The notes under the pieces are model-generated. The model searched no databases. It worked only from the letters and a program-made list of their open reading frames with translations, and was not told where the DNA came from. A stretch of 64,000 bases of DNA, taken from Haloplanus salinus. Lineage in GTDB: Archaea; Halobacteriota; Halobacteria; Halobacteriales; Haloferacaceae. The position numbers and the translations under genes were made by a program. Of the stretch, positions 31,330 to 41,894 are shown in pieces (position 1 is the stretch's first letter; the number at the start of each line of letters is the position of its first letter). The DNA is taken from the NCBI RefSeq assembly GCF_003336245.1, contig NZ_QPHM01000001.1:2360113-2424112 (forward strand). Direction: 5' to 3'.

Positions 31330-31741
31330 ATGTCCGACGAAGACGCACCGGTGACCGCCTATCGTAGCGTTTGTAAGTCATCACACGTCGGATCGCAAGG
31401 CTGCGTGCGATCCGACGTGCAAACAGTTCCAAACGCTACTATACGTCACCGCCCCCCGCGACGCGGCGACCGACCTCGCCCGTCGCCTCGTCGACGAGCG
31501 TCTGGCCGCCTGCGTCAACGTCGCCGACTGCACGTCGACGTACCGCTGGGACGGGGCCGTCCACGAGGACGCCGAGGCGATTCTGCTGGCGAAGACGACG
31601 GACGACCGGTACGACGAACTCGCCACCCGAGTCGTCGAGTGGCACCCCCACGCCGTGCCCTGTGTCGAACGGATCGACACGGTGGACGCCGACGCCCCGT
31701 TCGCGGCGTGGTGTGCCGGCGCCGTCGCGGACGCGGAGTGA
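31330..31741 (+). pseudogene. cutA: cutA (divalent cation tolerance protein) interrupted by a palindromic element
   Basis: From 31442 the frame reads YVTAPRDAATDLARRLVDER and continues through LAACVNVADC and STYRWDG to a stop at 31739-31741: a nearly complete CutA1 (trimeric metal-tolerance protein). The expected start is present upstream in a different register: ATG at 31330 gives MSDEDAPVTA, which would join cleanly to YVTAPRD if the intervening element were removed. The net insertion is 82 bp with a TA repeated at both edges, and 82 is not a multiple of 3. The 3' frame has no ATG, GTG or TTG before the conserved region. As read, CutA cannot be made unless the element is spliced or bypassed. 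Confidence 0.75.
31360..31443. repeat. Palindromic hairpin element 1, inserted in cutA
   Basis: Outer arms GTAGCGTTTG (31364-31373) and CAAACGCTAC (31430-31439); inner arms CACGTCGGATCGCA (31384-31397) and TGCGATCCGACGTG (31406-31419); 8-nt loop AGGCTGCG. Between outer and inner arms lie TAAGTCATCA on the left and CAAACAGTTC on the right. AAGTCATCA and ACAGTTC recur exactly in the element at 35072-35145, whose arms are otherwise unrelated. A short TAT/ATA pair and a TA repeat flank it. Structured RNA, folded single-stranded DNA substrate and mobile mini-element are all possible. Confidence 0.85.
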
Positions 31742-31843
31742 GCAGCCCGCGTACCGGACGCGACGGTCCCGACCGGCCACGACACCGGGAGGTGGCCGAG
31801 CGGACGCCCGGACACGGATTCGCCCCGAGTCGATACCGGTCCA

Positions 31844-32509
31844 TCACCGCAGCGACGCCAGCGCTTCGAGCGTCCCGTCCATGTGTGCCCCCTCGGTGAC
31901 GTGGTCGGCGGCGGCGCGCGCCCGGTCGTCGGCGTTCGCGACGGCGAAGGACTCGCCGACCGCCTCGAACGTCGACACGTCGTTCTCGCTGTCGCCGACG
32001 GCGACGAAGTCGGTCGGCTCGTAGCCGACCGCCTCGGCCGCCGCCCGCACGCCGTCGCCCTTCTCTACCTCCGGCGTCACGAGGTGGTAGGCGTAGCCCG
32101 TATCCACCACGTCGACGCCGAACTCCTCGGCGACGGCCCGCAGCAGAGCTTCGTCGGCGTCCATGCTGACCGCCACCTCCGTCTCGCGCCACCGGTTGAC
32201 GGTGTCGGCGGCGCCCCAGCCCAAGTCGCCGCCGCGGTCGACGAACGCCTCGGCGGCCGCCCGCGGTCGGTCGGGATCGACCGTCACCCGAACCTCGTCG
32301 TCGACGTAGACGACGCCGCCGTGTTCGGCGATCACTCGTTCGGGAACGTGGAGGAAGTGACAGAGCGCGACCGGATACGGGAACGCCTTCCCCGTCGCGA
32401 GGACGACCGGCGCGTCCCACGCTGGCAGCGCCTCGAAGACCCGGGGGTCGATTCCGCCCGACGCCCGCGTCAGCGTTCCGTCGATGTCGAGTACGAGCGG
32501 CGGCACCAT
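31844..32509 (-). CDS. Phosphoglycolate phosphatase, archaeal type (HAD IIB)
   Basis: 221 residues. HAD motif I is LVLDIDGTLT (residues 5-14), motif II VLATGKAFPYP, and motifs III/IV VEKGDGVRAAAEAVGY and VAVGDSENDVSTFEAVG near residue 170. Length and motif spacing match archaeal phosphoglycolate phosphatases related to sucrose-phosphate phosphatases. It dephosphorylates 2-phosphoglycolate or similar small phosphates in the cytoplasm. A minus-strand TATA (TTTATC, about 32531-32538) lies 22-29 nt upstream. Confidence 0.9.
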   Translation of the reverse strand: MVPPLVLDIDGTLTRASGGIDPRVFEALPAWDAPVVLATGKAFPYPVALCHFLHVPERVIAEHGGVVYVDDEVRVTVDPDRPRAAAEAFVDRGGDLGWGAADTVNRWRETEVAVSMDADEALLRAVAEEFGVDVVDTGYAYHLVTPEVEKGDGVRAAAEAVGYEPTDFVAVGDSENDVSTFEAVGESFAVANADDRARAAADHVTEGAHMDGTLEALASLR

Positions 32510-32651
32510 ATCGGGTTCAGCGGCGCGAGGGTGATAAACGACGCGTCACGGGGCGACCGACGGGACCGCGCGTCGGCGGGCGCGCGCCGGCGGGCACGCC
32601 CGACGACCCTTCACCGACGCCGTGAAGTGACCCGCCTCCACATTCTCGGCC

Positions 32652-33845
32652 ATGCAGACGACCGTCCTCGTGATCGGCGGCGGCGCGACGGGCGTCGGCG
32701 TCGCCCGCGACCTGGCGCTCCGCGGCGTCGACGTGACGCTCGTCGACCGCGGTTCGCTCGCCGCCGGCACCACCGGCCGCTCGCACGGCGTCCTCCACAG
32801 CGGCGCACGGTACGCCGAGGCCGACCCCTCGGACGCGGCCGCCTGTCTCGCCGAGAATCGGGTGCTTCGGGAGGTCGCCCCGGCCTGTCTCGACGAGACG
32901 GGCGGCTACTTTCTCCACCTCGACGGCGACGATCCCGACTACTTCGAGCGCAAGCGCGCGGCCTGCACCGACCTGGGGATGGCCGTCGAGACGCTCTCGG
33001 GTGCCGAACTCCGAAAGCGCGTCCCCGAAGCCAGCCCCGCCGTCGAACGCGCCCTCGCGGTGCCCGACGCCGTGGTATCGCCGTCGCGACTCGTCGTCGC
33101 CAACGCCGCCGCTGCCCGCGATGCGGGGGCGACGATCCACGCGCACGCGCCGGTCGAGGACGTCCACGTCGTGGACGGTACCGTCGCGGGCGCCGACATC
33201 GGCGGCCGTCTCGGCGCGACCGTCGAGGCCGACGTCGTGGTGAACGCGACCGGCCCCTGGGCCGGGCGGTGTGCGGCGCTCGCGGGCGTCTCGGTGCCCA
33301 TGCGGCCGACCCGTGGCGTGATGGTCGGCGTCGACAACCCCGGCGTCGACGCGGTGCTGAACCGGTGTCGGGCGCCCACGGACGGCGACATCGTCGTTCC
33401 GCGGGGCGACGAGGCGGTCCTCGGCACCACGAGCGTCGCCGTCGGCGACCCCGACGACTTCGAGCGAAGCGAGGCGGAAATCGAGCGGACCGTCGCGGAG
33501 TGTGCCGCGATGTGTCCCGCGGTCGATGGGTCCGTTCGGCGTACGTACTGGGGCGTCCGCCCGCTCTACGCGCCGGCCGAGGCCGACCGGGACGGTCGGG
33601 CCATCTCCCGCGGGTTCGCGCTCCTCGATCACGCCGACGGCGGTGCGGCCGGCTTCTTCACCGTCGTCGGCGGAAAGCTCACCACCTACCGGAAGATGGC
33701 CGAGGCGACGGCCGACCGGGTGTGTGAGCGCCTCGGCGTCCCGGCGACCTGTCGGACCGCCGACCGCCCGCTCCCCGGCGCCGACGACCCCGCCGAACTC
33801 GACGCGCTGTGTGCGGCGTTCGGCGTCGACGCGCCGGCCCGCTAG
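32652..33845 (+). CDS. FAD-dependent glycerol-3-phosphate dehydrogenase-like oxidoreductase (GlpA/DAO family, short)
   Basis: 397 residues. FAD motif VLVIGGGATGVGVARDLALR (residues 5-24), the second block GTTGRSHGVLHSGARY near 44, the C-terminal GGKLTTYRKMAE near 340, and the conserved YWGVRPLYAP region. It resembles subunit A of anaerobic glycerol-3-phosphate dehydrogenase but lacks the C-terminal BFD-like iron-sulfur domain, and no GlpB/GlpC genes follow. It may oxidise glycerol-3-phosphate or another 2-hydroxy acid. It overlaps the convergent nucleotidyltransferase by 4 bp. Confidence 0.8.
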   Translation: MQTTVLVIGGGATGVGVARDLALRGVDVTLVDRGSLAAGTTGRSHGVLHSGARYAEADPSDAAACLAENRVLREVAPACLDETGGYFLHLDGDDPDYFERKRAACTDLGMAVETLSGAELRKRVPEASPAVERALAVPDAVVSPSRLVVANAAAARDAGATIHAHAPVEDVHVVDGTVAGADIGGRLGATVEADVVVNATGPWAGRCAALAGVSVPMRPTRGVMVGVDNPGVDAVLNRCRAPTDGDIVVPRGDEAVLGTTSVAVGDPDDFERSEAEIERTVAECAAMCPAVDGSVRRTYWGVRPLYAPAEADRDGRAISRGFALLDHADGGAAGFFTVVGGKLTTYRKMAEATADRVCERLGVPATCRTADRPLPGADDPAELDALCAAFGVDAPAR

Positions 33846-35026
33846 CGACCCCGGTCCCGCCGCACCGTCTCGCCCGGGTCGGTGCGTGCGCCCGCCCCGA
33901 GGACGACGCCCGCGTTCAGCGCCGTGTCGATGCCCGTCTTCACCGCGTCGCCACAGACGACGCCGAACTTGCGTCGTCCCGTCGATGTCGACTCGCCTTT
34001 CACCCGGACGCGCACGGCCGCGTCGTCGTGACGGAGGTTGGCGACGGTCGTGCCGGCGCCGAAGTTCACGTCGCGCCCGAGGACGCTGTCGCCGACGTAG
34101 GAGAGGTGGCCGACCGTCGCGCCCGCCATCAACACGCTGTTTTTCACCTCGACGGCGTGACCGACGCTCGCCCCCTCGCCGACCACCGTCGCGCCGCGGA
34201 CGTAGGCGTTCGGGCCGACGCTCGCGCCCGCCCGGACGAGCGCCGGCCCTTCGATCACGACGCCGGCGTCCACCGTCGCGCCCGCCTCGACGACGACCGA
34301 CCCGCGCAGGTCGGCGTCGGGGTGTACGTCGCCGTCGATCCGGCGCTCCATCTCGCCCAGCTTCCACTCGTTGGCGGCGAGGAGGTCCCACGGCCGCCCC
34401 ACGTCCAGCCACCGGTCGACGGCGACGGCGCGCACGTCGGCGGCGTCGCAGGCACGTTCCAGCACGTCCGTGAGTTCGTACTCGCCGCGGTCGCTCTCGC
34501 CCACGTCCAGCCAGTTCCGCGCCGCCGTGGGGAAGACGTACGCGCCGGCGTTGACGAGGGTCGACGCGGGAGTCGCGGGCTTCTCGACGACGCTCCGAAC
34601 GTGACCGTCCGCGTCGGTCTCCAACACCCCGTAGTTCTCCGGGTCGTCGACCCGGCACGCGCCGACGGCGGGGCCGGCGTCGTAGAGGGCGGCGAGTGAG
34701 CCGCGGTCGTAGAGCACGTCGCCGTTCAGGACCGCGAAGGGCGCGTCGTCGAGTTCGCCGCGCGCGGCCCGCACCGCGTCGGCTGTGCCGCGTTGGCGGT
34801 CCTGGGTGACGAACTCGACGGCCTCGCGGTCGCCGAGGGCGCCGCGCACCGCGTCCGCAGCGTAGCCGACGACGACGACGATACGGCTCGCTCCGGCCGC
34901 CGTCGCGGTGTCGACGACGTGTTCGACGAGCGTCCGGTCCGCGACGGGGAGGGTCGGTTTCGGCCGACGGTCGGTGAGCGGACGCATCCGCGTCCCCTCG
35001 CCGGCCGCGAGCACGACGGTCTGCAT
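33842..35026 (-). CDS. Bifunctional sugar-1-phosphate nucleotidyltransferase/acetyltransferase (GlmU-like)
   Basis: 394 residues. It starts MQTVVLAAGEGTRMRPLTDR, with KPTLPVADRTLVEHVVDT and FAVLNGDVLYDRGSLAAL near 95. From about residue 240 it has many hexapeptide repeats (VDAGVVIEGPALVRAGASVG) forming a left-handed beta-helix, ending in the acetyltransferase-type GAGTTVANLRHDD and KTGIDTALNAGVVLGAG. It probably makes UDP-GlcNAc. A second, related enzyme is at 37891-39084. Hairpin element 2 lies just upstream of its start. Confidence 0.88.
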   Translation of the reverse strand: MQTVVLAAGEGTRMRPLTDRRPKPTLPVADRTLVEHVVDTATAAGASRIVVVVGYAADAVRGALGDREAVEFVTQDRQRGTADAVRAARGELDDAPFAVLNGDVLYDRGSLAALYDAGPAVGACRVDDPENYGVLETDADGHVRSVVEKPATPASTLVNAGAYVFPTAARNWLDVGESDRGEYELTDVLERACDAADVRAVAVDRWLDVGRPWDLLAANEWKLGEMERRIDGDVHPDADLRGSVVVEAGATVDAGVVIEGPALVRAGASVGPNAYVRGATVVGEGASVGHAVEVKNSVLMAGATVGHLSYVGDSVLGRDVNFGAGTTVANLRHDDAAVRVRVKGESTSTGRRKFGVVCGDAVKTGIDTALNAGVVLGAGARTDPGETVRRDRGR

Positions 35027-35071
35027 AGTGGGGCCACGGCGAGCGCCGACAAAGCCGTTGTCCCTACTTTA

Positions 35072-35122
35072 GGGATTATCGGAAGTCATCAGAGATTCTC
35101 GCCGGGACGGTCCGGCGAGAAT

Positions 35123-35145
<23 letters not shown>
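35072..35145. repeat. Palindromic hairpin element 2, overlapping the 3' end of a gene
   Basis: Outer arms GGGATTATCGGAA (35072-35084) and TTCCGATAATCCC (35133-35145); inner arms AGATTCTCGCCGG (35093-35105) and CCGGCGAGAATCT (35112-35124); 6-nt loop. The internal loops hold AAGTCATCA (35083-35091) and ACAGTTC (35129-35135), identical to element 1, in the same order and orientation. The minus-strand gene's last codons and TAG stop lie inside the right half. It separates that gene from the GlmU-like gene downstream on the same strand. Confidence 0.85.
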
Positions 35146-36007
<862 letters not shown>

Positions 36008-36088
36008 CACGTTCGGTACGGGGCGGCCGATTAAGTGGGTTCCGTCGGCACCGGCGTCGGCATCGTGATCCGACGGGGCACCGCCCGC

Positions 36089-39114: not shown

Positions 39115-39148
39115 CCTCCGTGCGTCCCGGCCCCGCCGATCCGAACCC

Positions 39149-39155
39149 TCTTTAC
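39149..39155 (+). promoter_or_regulatory. TATA box of the UDP-glucose dehydrogenase gene
   Basis: CTTTACT, with an upstream CCGAACC element, lies 25-31 nt before the ATG at 39180. Confidence 0.6.
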
Positions 39156-39179
39156 TCCGGCACCCGCCAACGCTACAGC

Positions 39180-41894
39180 ATGAAGATCGGGATCGTCGGG
39201 AGCGGGTACGTGGGAACGACAATCGCGGCCTGTTTCGCCGACCTCGGCCACGAGGTCACGAACGTCGACGTCGACGAGTCGGTCGTCGCGGCGCTGAACG
39301 ACGGCGAGGCGCCGATCTCCGAACCCGGCCTCGGCGACTTGCTCGACCGCTACGCCGGGGAGACGCTCCACGCGACGACCGAGTACGAGGCCTTCGTCGA
39401 CTTCGCTCCCGACGTGATCTTCCTCGCGCTCCCAACGCCCGCAACGGAGGACGGGAGCATCGACACCGCGATAGTGGAGGCCGGCGCCGAATCCCTCGGC
39501 CGCGTCCTGGCCGACGTCGACGGCTACCCGACCGTCGTCGTCAAGAGTACCGTCGTCCCCGGGACGACCGAGGACGTCGTCGGCCCGATCCTCGAACGCG
39601 AGTCCGGCGGCGAGGTCGGCGTCGACTTCGGCCTCGCCATGAACCCCGAGTTCCTGCGGGAGGGTAGCGCCGTCGACGACTTCACCGATCCCGACAAACT
39701 CGTCTTCGGGACGAGCGACGACCGCAGCCGCGAGGCGCTCGACGCGGTGTACGAACCCCTCACCGACGGCGCCGACGTCCCCGTCGTCCACACCGGGCTC
39801 CGCGAGGCCGAGATGATCAAGTACGCCAACAACGCCTTCCTCGCCGCGAAGGTGAGCCTCATCAACGAACTCGGGAACATCTGCAAGGCGTACGGGGTCG
39901 ACGCCTACGAGGTGGCCGACGCAATCGGCCTCGACGACCGCATCGGCGAGCGTTTCCTCCGCAGCGGCGTCGGCTGGGGCGGGAGCTGTCTCACTGGCGA
40001 CCAGCGCGTCTTGGCGAAAGATGACGACGGGACGACGCTCCTTTCGCTGGCCGACTTTTTCGACCGGTACGTAGCCGATGGATCGGTGGATGGCGTTTCG
40101 GTGCTCAGTTATGCGGAGGGGGATGTCGAATTCAAACCGGTGGTGGCTGCGACCTGCCGCCCATACGAGGGGATCTTACACACTATCGAAACGAGCATGA
40201 ACAAGAAGGTGACCGCCACTCACGATCATCCCATGGTCGTCGTCGAGGGCGAATCCACGGTCGTTCGACAGGCGCAGACTATCGACGAAGGCGACGCCCT
40301 TCCCGTCCAGACCGGCTTACCGGTCGATCCGGTCGGATCGTTCGATCTCATCGACCTCGTCGAGGCATCGTCCGTTATTGACGACGGCTCGGTGTATCTC
40401 AACCCGTCGTTCGAGATGAGTTCCCTCGCGGAACGGTTCCACGACTGCCTCGACGAGTACAACGGCCGGTACGACTACGACAGAGTCCACGAGTTCATCC
40501 GGAACGACTACATCCCGCTCGATGTCTTTCTCGAATTCGAGGACCGCCTTCCACTCGATCGGAACGAGGTCGCCCTGTATACGACCGTCGGCGGTGGACA
40601 GACGTACGTGCCCGCGATCATCCACGCGGATGAGCGATTCTGGCGGTTCATCGGCTACTACCTCAGTGAAGGGCATATCAACACCGACGATTCGGGCAAC
40701 GGATCGGCCCCTCGGAAGCGTGTCTTTCTGAGCTTTCATCCGACCGACGAGCAGGAGTACGTCTCGGATGTCGAGTCCTACCTCGGCGAAATCGGAATCC
40801 GATACCGGACGGATACACAAGAGACGGCAACCCACGTCGAGATTTCGAGCCGTGTGTTCGCACACTTCCTCGAACGACTCGGCTGTGGGACGGGCTCGTA
40901 CTCCGCACGGATTCCCGAGCCGGCATATCGGGAGACAGATGCGAACCGACGGGCGCTCTTGTCGGGGCTATTCCGAGGTGACGGTTACATCGAGTACACG
41001 AACCACTCGAACGCCGTGGTCTACGACTACGGTTCGGTTAGCGAGGAGCTGATCCAAGGGATGCAGTTCCTCTTACACGGTCTCGGAATCGTCCCGAGCT
41101 ACAAAGCCTCACAGTCCGAGAAATCGACGCGACCAGCCCACTTCCTCCGGATAAGTTCGGAACGACAGATCGCCGAGTTGTCCGGGATGTTTCTCCCGGA
41201 CGAGCAGGAGCGGATCGAGCAACGACTCGCGAGTTACGACCGGAACGTCGCTCCGACCGGTTACACCGATGGGGGACGACATACGACCGTGAGTGTGAAC
41301 GAGGTCACTACACAAGAGACGGCTGTCGATGTCTACTCCCTCGAAGTCGCGGACAACCACACGTTCGTGACGACCGACGGCCTCGTCGTTCACAACTGCT
41401 TCCCGAAAGACGTAAACGCCATCGTCGCCGCCGCCCGCGAGGCGGGGTACGACCCGCAACTCCTGCAGGCTGCCATCGACGTGAACGACCGTCAGCCCGA
41501 GCGGATGCTCGATCTGATGGACGACCACGTCGACGTCGAGGGAAAGCGCGTCGCCGTCCTCGGCCTCGCATTTAAACCCGGCACCGACGACATCCGCAAC
41601 TCGCGGGCCATCCCGATCATCGAGGGCCTACAGGAGCGCGGCGCGGAAGTCGCCGCCTACGACCCCAACGACGGCGCGAGGGCCGCGATGCGCGAGCGGT
41701 TCCCCGGCGTCGAGTATCCCGCCGGCCCGTCGCCGACGCTCTCCGGCGCCAACGCAGCCCTGATCGTCACCGACTGGCCGGAGTTCGGCGACCTCGACTC
41801 CGAGTTTGATCTGCTGTCGAACGCGGTCGTGATCGACGGACGGCGGATCGTCGAGCGCCGAGAGGGACTCACGTACGAAGGGCTGACCTGGTGA
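39180..41894 (+). CDS. aglM: UDP-glucose 6-dehydrogenase (AglM) containing an intein
   Basis: 904 codons. The extein parts (residues 1-269 and 740-904, 434 residues) form a normal UDP-glucose/GDP-mannose dehydrogenase: NAD site MKIGIVGSGYVGTTIAACF, the middle domain AEMIKYANNAFLAAKVS, and the C-terminal VAVLGLAFKPGTDDIRNSRA. It oxidises UDP-glucose to UDP-glucuronate for the N-glycan and for the UXS-type enzyme. The catalytic cysteine motif GGSCFPKD is split exactly before the cysteine by a 470-residue intein, so the enzyme is inactive until spliced. Confidence 0.95.
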   Translation: MKIGIVGSGYVGTTIAACFADLGHEVTNVDVDESVVAALNDGEAPISEPGLGDLLDRYAGETLHATTEYEAFVDFAPDVIFLALPTPATEDGSIDTAIVEAGAESLGRVLADVDGYPTVVVKSTVVPGTTEDVVGPILERESGGEVGVDFGLAMNPEFLREGSAVDDFTDPDKLVFGTSDDRSREALDAVYEPLTDGADVPVVHTGLREAEMIKYANNAFLAAKVSLINELGNICKAYGVDAYEVADAIGLDDRIGERFLRSGVGWGGSCLTGDQRVLAKDDDGTTLLSLADFFDRYVADGSVDGVSVLSYAEGDVEFKPVVAATCRPYEGILHTIETSMNKKVTATHDHPMVVVEGESTVVRQAQTIDEGDALPVQTGLPVDPVGSFDLIDLVEASSVIDDGSVYLNPSFEMSSLAERFHDCLDEYNGRYDYDRVHEFIRNDYIPLDVFLEFEDRLPLDRNEVALYTTVGGGQTYVPAIIHADERFWRFIGYYLSEGHINTDDSGNGSAPRKRVFLSFHPTDEQEYVSDVESYLGEIGIRYRTDTQETATHVEISSRVFAHFLERLGCGTGSYSARIPEPAYRETDANRRALLSGLFRGDGYIEYTNHSNAVVYDYGSVSEELIQGMQFLLHGLGIVPSYKASQSEKSTRPAHFLRISSERQIAELSGMFLPDEQERIEQRLASYDRNVAPTGYTDGGRHTTVSVNEVTTQETAVDVYSLEVADNHTFVTTDGLVVHNCFPKDVNAIVAAAREAGYDPQLLQAAIDVNDRQPERMLDLMDDHVDVEGKRVAVLGLAFKPGTDDIRNSRAIPIIEGLQERGAEVAAYDPNDGARAAMRERFPGVEYPAGPSPTLSGANAALIVTDWPEFGDLDSEFDLLSNAVVIDGRRIVERREGLTYEGLTW
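39987..41396 (+). other. Intein with LAGLIDADG homing endonuclease
   Basis: Residues 270-739 of the precursor. It begins CLTGDQRVL (splicing Cys1). Block B is VTATHDHPMVV with the T-x2-H pattern. Endonuclease blocks are RFIGYYLSEGHI (about residue 492) and LLSGLFRGDGYIEY (about 600). Block F is VDVYSLEVADNHTFVTTDGL and block G is VVHN followed by the extein Cys. All splicing residues (Cys1, His, terminal HN, Cys+1) are present. Both endonuclease motifs keep an acidic residue, so homing may still work. GC and codon bias are lower than in the exteins. Confidence 0.95.

Follow-up and report, generated by a model that had tools for sequence, protein, structure and literature searches.

Both hairpins in the window, the 64,000-nucleotide stretch of Haloplanus salinus DNA that we analysed, are with a probability of about 0.92 MITEs, ~80 bp non-autonomous elements in which a left and a right end of the IS630 family (DDE_3, Tc1/mariner superfamily) stand head to head. 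They represent two subfamilies (C for element 1, A for element 2) of one gene-less 78-80 bp transposon, which is found in many salt-loving archaea. Multicopy mobility, two classes of target duplication, empty sites and nested insertions were observed directly, and a genome of the same genus (G075) contains IS630 elements with register-matched ends and the same duplication classes. MITEs, including IS630-type ones, are already known; we found no published description of this haloarchaeal family in the open-access literature, and among the papers listed by a literature search with the end sequence there were only coincidental primer matches.

Two elements and their empty sites

The initial annotation had described hairpins at 31360-31443 and 35072-35145 with identical internal-loop strings; we find both hairpins at these coordinates, and their loop strings agree in sequence, order and orientation. 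When 35 aligned copies were turned into a covariance model, the model recovered both elements in the window (86 and 71.5 bits) and no other convincing match. Elsewhere in the window, a 924-aa UDP-sugar dehydrogenase-like ORF (39120-41894, + strand) contains an apparent intein (CLTGDQRVL...VVHNC).

Comparing the flanks with relatives lacking the element, as had been suggested, yielded empty sites in G071 and G074 for element 1 and in G074 for element 2. At the first site, G071 and G074 have accgccTAcgtcacc and the window has accgccTA[80 bp]TAcgtcacc. From this comparison it follows that the duplicated target is TA and that cutA is frameshifted after codon 11. Intact cutA orthologues are present in genomes of the same genus. 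The features at this locus are:

31330-31741, + strand: cutA, broken by an 82-bp insertion that shifts the frame after codon 11; intact orthologues of relatives have MPDSDADAPVTAYVTAPR..., the window has MSDEDAPVTAY[element]
31360-31361, no strand: left target-site duplication TA (G071 and G074 empty site accgccTAcgtcacc)
31362-31441, + strand: element 1, an 80-bp MITE of subfamily C with TAGTAGCGTTTG ends (86 bits on 31361-31442; exact boundaries from the G071/G074 empty site)
31362-31376, + strand: outer box of the left end (TCGTAGCGTTTGTAA), in register with IS630 type I ends (profile positions 1-12, p ~0.002)
31377-31379, + strand: left spacer GTC, part of the initially annotated loop string AAGTCATCA; near-invariant in 185 copies, never pairing with its partner
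31384-31397, + strand: left inner arm (CACGTCGGATCGCA), from fold and covariation
31406-31419, + strand: right inner arm (TGCGATCCGACGTG), from fold and covariation
31424-31426, + strand: right spacer CAG (CTG read inwards), from the copy alignment
31427-31441, + strand: outer box of the right end (TTCCAAACGCTACTA), from family copies and comparison with IS ends
31442-31443, no strand: right target-site duplication TA (same G071/G074 comparison)

The empty site of element 2 is known from one relative, G074, which has ccctactcggcg where the window holds 80 extra bases. Judging from the two sequences, the right TCG has probably been kept and the left copy eroded. Element 2 supplies the stop codon of an uncharacterised gene, changing the protein end from ...VLVAE to ...VLVADGDYRNCP. 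The features are:

35069, no strand: probable eroded remnant of the left target duplication (G074 empty site CCCTACTCGGCG)
35070-35147, + strand: element 2, a 78-bp MITE of subfamily A with TAGGGATTATCG ends (71.5 bits on 35069-35148; G074 empty site)
35085-35087, + strand: left spacer GTC, from sequence and copy alignment
35093-35105, + strand: left inner arm (AGATTCTCGCCGG), from sequence and fold
35112-35124, + strand: right inner arm (CCGGCGAGAATCT), from sequence and fold
35130-35132, + strand: right spacer CAG, from sequence and copy alignment
35148-35150, no strand: probable right-hand TCG of the duplicated triplet (G074 comparison)
35123-36010, - strand: uncharacterised gene, its last codons and stop now inside element 2 (G074 end GTCCTCGTCGCCGAGTAG, window end ...GCCGATGGGGATTATCGGAACTGTCCATAG)

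A mobile family in haloarchaea

The family, initially annotated as having two members, occupies ~50 places in the own genome (3.55 Mb) according to the covariance model. Within the same taxonomic family, 167 genomes were searched with the model (27 candidates scored per genome), and 57 gave matches. In the own genome, both loop strings stand at hairpin spacing 4 times, compared with 0 for a reversed control; many relatives have them too. The loops are indeed conserved, more distant members retaining only AAGTC...CAGTT of the two strings. Among flanked copies (78-80 bp), the end types are A (TAGGGATTATCG), B (TACGG/TAGTG...GTAA), C/D (TAGTAGCGTTTG/TCTG) and F (TACTGTCGGCTG), and G075 contains 24 near-identical type-C MITEs. 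Haloarchaeal plasmids carry copies too; pHME505 of Haloferax mediterranei, for example, has them at 28 places. In 84,980 genomes, a 20-base pattern for the type-C end hit 68 loci, all of them haloarchaeal by title. No family member was found in a phage collection; in viral contigs, a loose pattern gave chance matches and a strict pattern gave four lone matches that do not look haloarchaeal.

Several related arrangements were noted. Contig C3 of genome G000 has a dense cluster of at least 13 MITEs at ~185-220 kb, types A, B, C and F among them. Cousins of 107 bp (L376, L380, L389, L411, L421 and in G006/G007) have the type-C terminal repeat and TA duplication around a different, non-palindromic core, and are present in many copies in one genus. 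Elements of ~100 bp with type-A ends contain yet another core (TTCATCGGTTCGGTTTCG...; L129, L132, L134), and two 45-bp type-A forms have lost the inner stem (L117 and L121, the latter with CTA on both sides).

The duplicated target depends on the subfamily. TA flanks type C on both sides in 90 of 107 copies, preceded by C in 84 and followed by G in 82, i.e. mostly CTAG. Types A and B have TNA instead, identical on both sides in 15/26 and 32/50 copies, respectively. Some copies are inserted into others: type A lies within type C at L381 and L433, where AATCAGTT has become AATCA[element]TCAGTT, and type F lies within type C at L431 and L437 with a TCA or TAA duplication. These nested insertions represent empty sites within the family itself. 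As the hairpins are mobile, duplicate their targets, have empty sites in relatives and insert into one another, the initial statement that they are not a copied repeat finds no support.

The elements have the properties of MITEs: they are non-coding and 78-80 bp long (MITEs range from 50 to 500 bp), they are multicopy with target-site duplications and empty sites, and their terminal inverted repeats form a helix of positions 1-16 with 67-82 in which 88% of cells are paired.

Covariation of the stems

Both elements fold far better than dinucleotide shuffles on either strand (z -6.2 to -9.2; 0/200 shuffles as good). The 35-copy alignment pairs symmetrically, column i with 83-i, and the covariation proposed initially is borne out: 90% of cells are paired, with 264 double changes compared with 103 in shuffles, and a slid-alignment control gives 31-43% paired. 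The initial annotation had taken it as a mark of selection on structure. We attribute it to the arms being inverted transposon ends; paired arms are expected from two inverted ends, and covariation is therefore not proof of RNA-fold selection.

A structured small RNA or cis-regulatory hairpin family, with stems under RNA-fold selection and internal loops serving as a protein-binding motif, would account for the strong fold, the covariation and the conserved loops. It would also suit type B, where copies are 85-90% alike and compensated double changes in the inner stem (47) outnumber unpaired single changes (19). Selection on one RNA strand would, however, favour G-U, yet G-T and A-C mismatches in the inner stem are balanced in types A and B (9 v 14 and 13 v 10), which therefore have no RNA signature; in type C, two columns account for most of the excess. 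Both strands fold equally well, copies are inserted inside genes such as cutA, and the flanks differ at each copy, so no promoter is carried. Rfam and tRNA scans of the window, H/ACA included, returned nothing. In addition, inverted-repeat arms are open to homogenisation by template switching, a process for which arm homogenisation and loop inversion have been described (PMC8794818, PMC8604942). Template switching would fit as the source of both in our MITEs, whose central 14-mers are found in both orientations relative to GTC...CAG (five exact reverse-complement pairs). We consider selection for an RNA fold very improbable and have dropped the new small-RNA class that had been put forward.

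IS630 elements with matching ends

A CTAG/TA target points to IS630, and the CTAG/TA target of type C was the reason for us to search for IS630 partners. This search concentrated on genomes with many type-C copies, and one of these, G075, has 20 IS630 (DDE_3) transposase loci alongside its type-C MITEs. We set the boundaries of these IS elements by comparing the copies of each type. Type I is 1055 bp long, begins with TAGTA and has TA, mostly CTAG, as target. Types II, III and IV (~1.1 kb) begin with TAGTGATTAA, TACGGTCGTG and TAGTGT, respectively; those of their copies that were read lie between TNA duplications. The G075 types encode proteins in two frames that match NF033545 (transpos_IS630), HTH_33 and PF13358 (DDE_3), i.e. 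an IS630 transposase. The IS630-family elements at L485-L487, L488-L494 and L496-L499 of G075 have 3-bp TNA duplications and a transposase split over two frames. A 3-bp TNA duplication appears unusual for IS630, and a search of the open-access literature returned no paper describing it.

MITE and IS630 ends match in a gapless register at positions 1-12 and 19-28. Positions 19-26 of type B are TTTACCGG, as in the right ends of types II, III and IV (II.R, III.R, IV.R), and positions 20-25 of type D are TTGCTC, as in IS type I. When end profiles were scored against shuffled ends, with p-values per comparison, both boxes of type C matched IS type I only (p 0.0002-0.0045, uncorrected for the 48 end pairs tested). 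The inner box of the type B right end matched II.R, III.R, IV.R (p 0.0002) and IV.L (0.0005) and not the type I right end (likewise uncorrected). Type A matches IS types II-IV more weakly than types B and C match their partners, and the spacer region (13-18) mostly gives no profile match. The kinship with the autonomous types I-IV is a statistical match over short boxes: MITEs and IS elements have only a short stretch of terminal sequence in common, and none of the G075 IS elements has ends identical to those of the MITEs.

The own genome has no DDE_3 match and therefore no helper now. Autonomous elements with MITE ends were also sought in parts of contigs C3 and C4, which gave only MITE pairs or chance matches, and a scan of 1.5 Mb of DNA for long end pairs gave only neighbouring MITEs or chance pairs.

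IS1031-type elements give 3-bp TNA duplications, and the own genome has DDE_Tnp_1 genes and no DDE_3. A non-IS630 DDE transposase, e.g. of the IS5/IS1031 type, might thus move the TNA subfamilies. Against this, IS630 types II-IV of G075 give TNA duplications themselves and match type B ends in both boxes. We set the IS5/IS1031-type mover aside as the IS5-type DDE_Tnp_1 elements of the own genome have unrelated ends (GGCTCTGTTGAAATCC), and grant a non-IS630 DDE transposase only a small chance.

The elements are palindromic, short, multicopy and common in haloarchaea, from which IS605-derived PATEs have been described (PMC3119063), and they could on these grounds be single-stranded DNA substrates of a Y1/HUH transposase (PATEs of the IS200/IS605 type, or REP with TnpA_REP). 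PATEs, however, have neither terminal inverted repeats nor target duplications (PMC3119063), and our MITEs have both. The target-site duplications at the empty sites contradict a Y1/HUH mechanism, and the MITE ends match those of DDE_3 elements whose duplications are the same, leaving it scarcely any probability. Of the folded single-stranded transposase substrate in the initial annotation, the transposase substrate stands, while for the single-stranded part the double-stranded DDE mechanism of IS630 fits better.

A model for IS630-dependent mobilisation

In this reading, an outer box (positions 1 to ~12-15) and an inner box (starting at ~19) make up each end, both of them putative transposase-binding sites, and between them lies a 3-bp spacer, which read inwards is GTC on the left and CTG on the right. 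The outer stem corresponds to the paired outer boxes, the fixed internal loop contains the spacers, and the inner stem contains the paired inner boxes, from which the inner arms continue to the hairpin tip. An IS630 transposase supplied in trans, for which the G075 types are candidates, would recognise the two ends and integrate the MITE with duplication of the target, which is TA for type C and TNA for types A and B.

Like other IS630-family MITEs (Stowaway-like, bacterial or archaeal), the elements are short and non-coding with IS630-related inverted repeats, and type C duplicates TA in CTAG. Unlike these, they are palindromic over nearly the whole element, duplicate TNA in types A and B, and have a 3-bp spacer with unlike left and right versions, each the same in every subfamily. 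They share the end register (1-12 and 19-28) and the target duplications with haloarchaeal IS630 types I-IV, which differ in size (1.06-1.15 kb), in encoding a two-frame transposase and in having no GTC/CTG spacer. REP/REPIN elements, which are likewise short palindromes in many copies, are not known to duplicate their targets and use a Y1 (RAYT) transposase, whereas our MITEs have target duplications and DDE_3 partners. The resemblance to PATEs extends to palindromic, multicopy haloarchaeal elements, and ends at the terminal inverted repeats and target duplications (PMC3119063). SMR-A and SMR-B of Haloquadratum walsbyi are also short, palindromic, non-coding repeats (the SMR HqIRS41 is 80 bp), and their mobiliser has been reported as unknown; they are described as having no target duplications and transposon-unrelated ends, which sets our MITEs apart by description (PMC3119063).

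The asymmetric spacer

The GTC/CTG spacer is ~99% invariant and always left/right asymmetric. Columns 17/66 are G.G and columns 19/64 are C.C in 180/185 copies, and column 20/63 is A.A (112) or T.T (37), almost never pairing. None of the IS ends that we found contains the spacer, and only IV.L comes near it, with AACTG (one base different). In a search for symmetric (left-left or right-right) elements, 116 were left-right, and we recognised no genuine symmetric one; three scored as symmetric look like GC-rich coding palindromes. A class-wide pattern for spacer-less ends returned mostly the 107-bp cousins; the few other matches were nested or degenerate copies. As these cousins share the type-C end without the spacer, that end can move without GTC/CTG.

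The spacer may be either a signal or a breaker of a too-perfect palindrome. As a signal in its own right, it might stay unpaired and fixed while the arms homogenise by template switching, because elements with symmetric spacers would be unable to transpose or, being perfect palindromes, would be destroyed. That the spacer is a functional signal and that, at the same time, the TNA-duplicating haloarchaeal IS630 elements form a distinct subgroup is a tentative and rather doubtful combination.

Taken together, our analysis replaces a candidate new RNA class by a specific assignment, open to testing, to a mobile element that occurs across haloarchaea. Palindromic transposons can mimic RNA covariation, as inverted ends and arm homogenisation give co-changing stems and fixed loops. 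The analysis also brings to light the left/right spacer rule and the choice of TNA targets, and it provides candidates for the helper transposases of small palindromic repeats of a kind that has been described as enigmatic in its mobility in haloarchaea.
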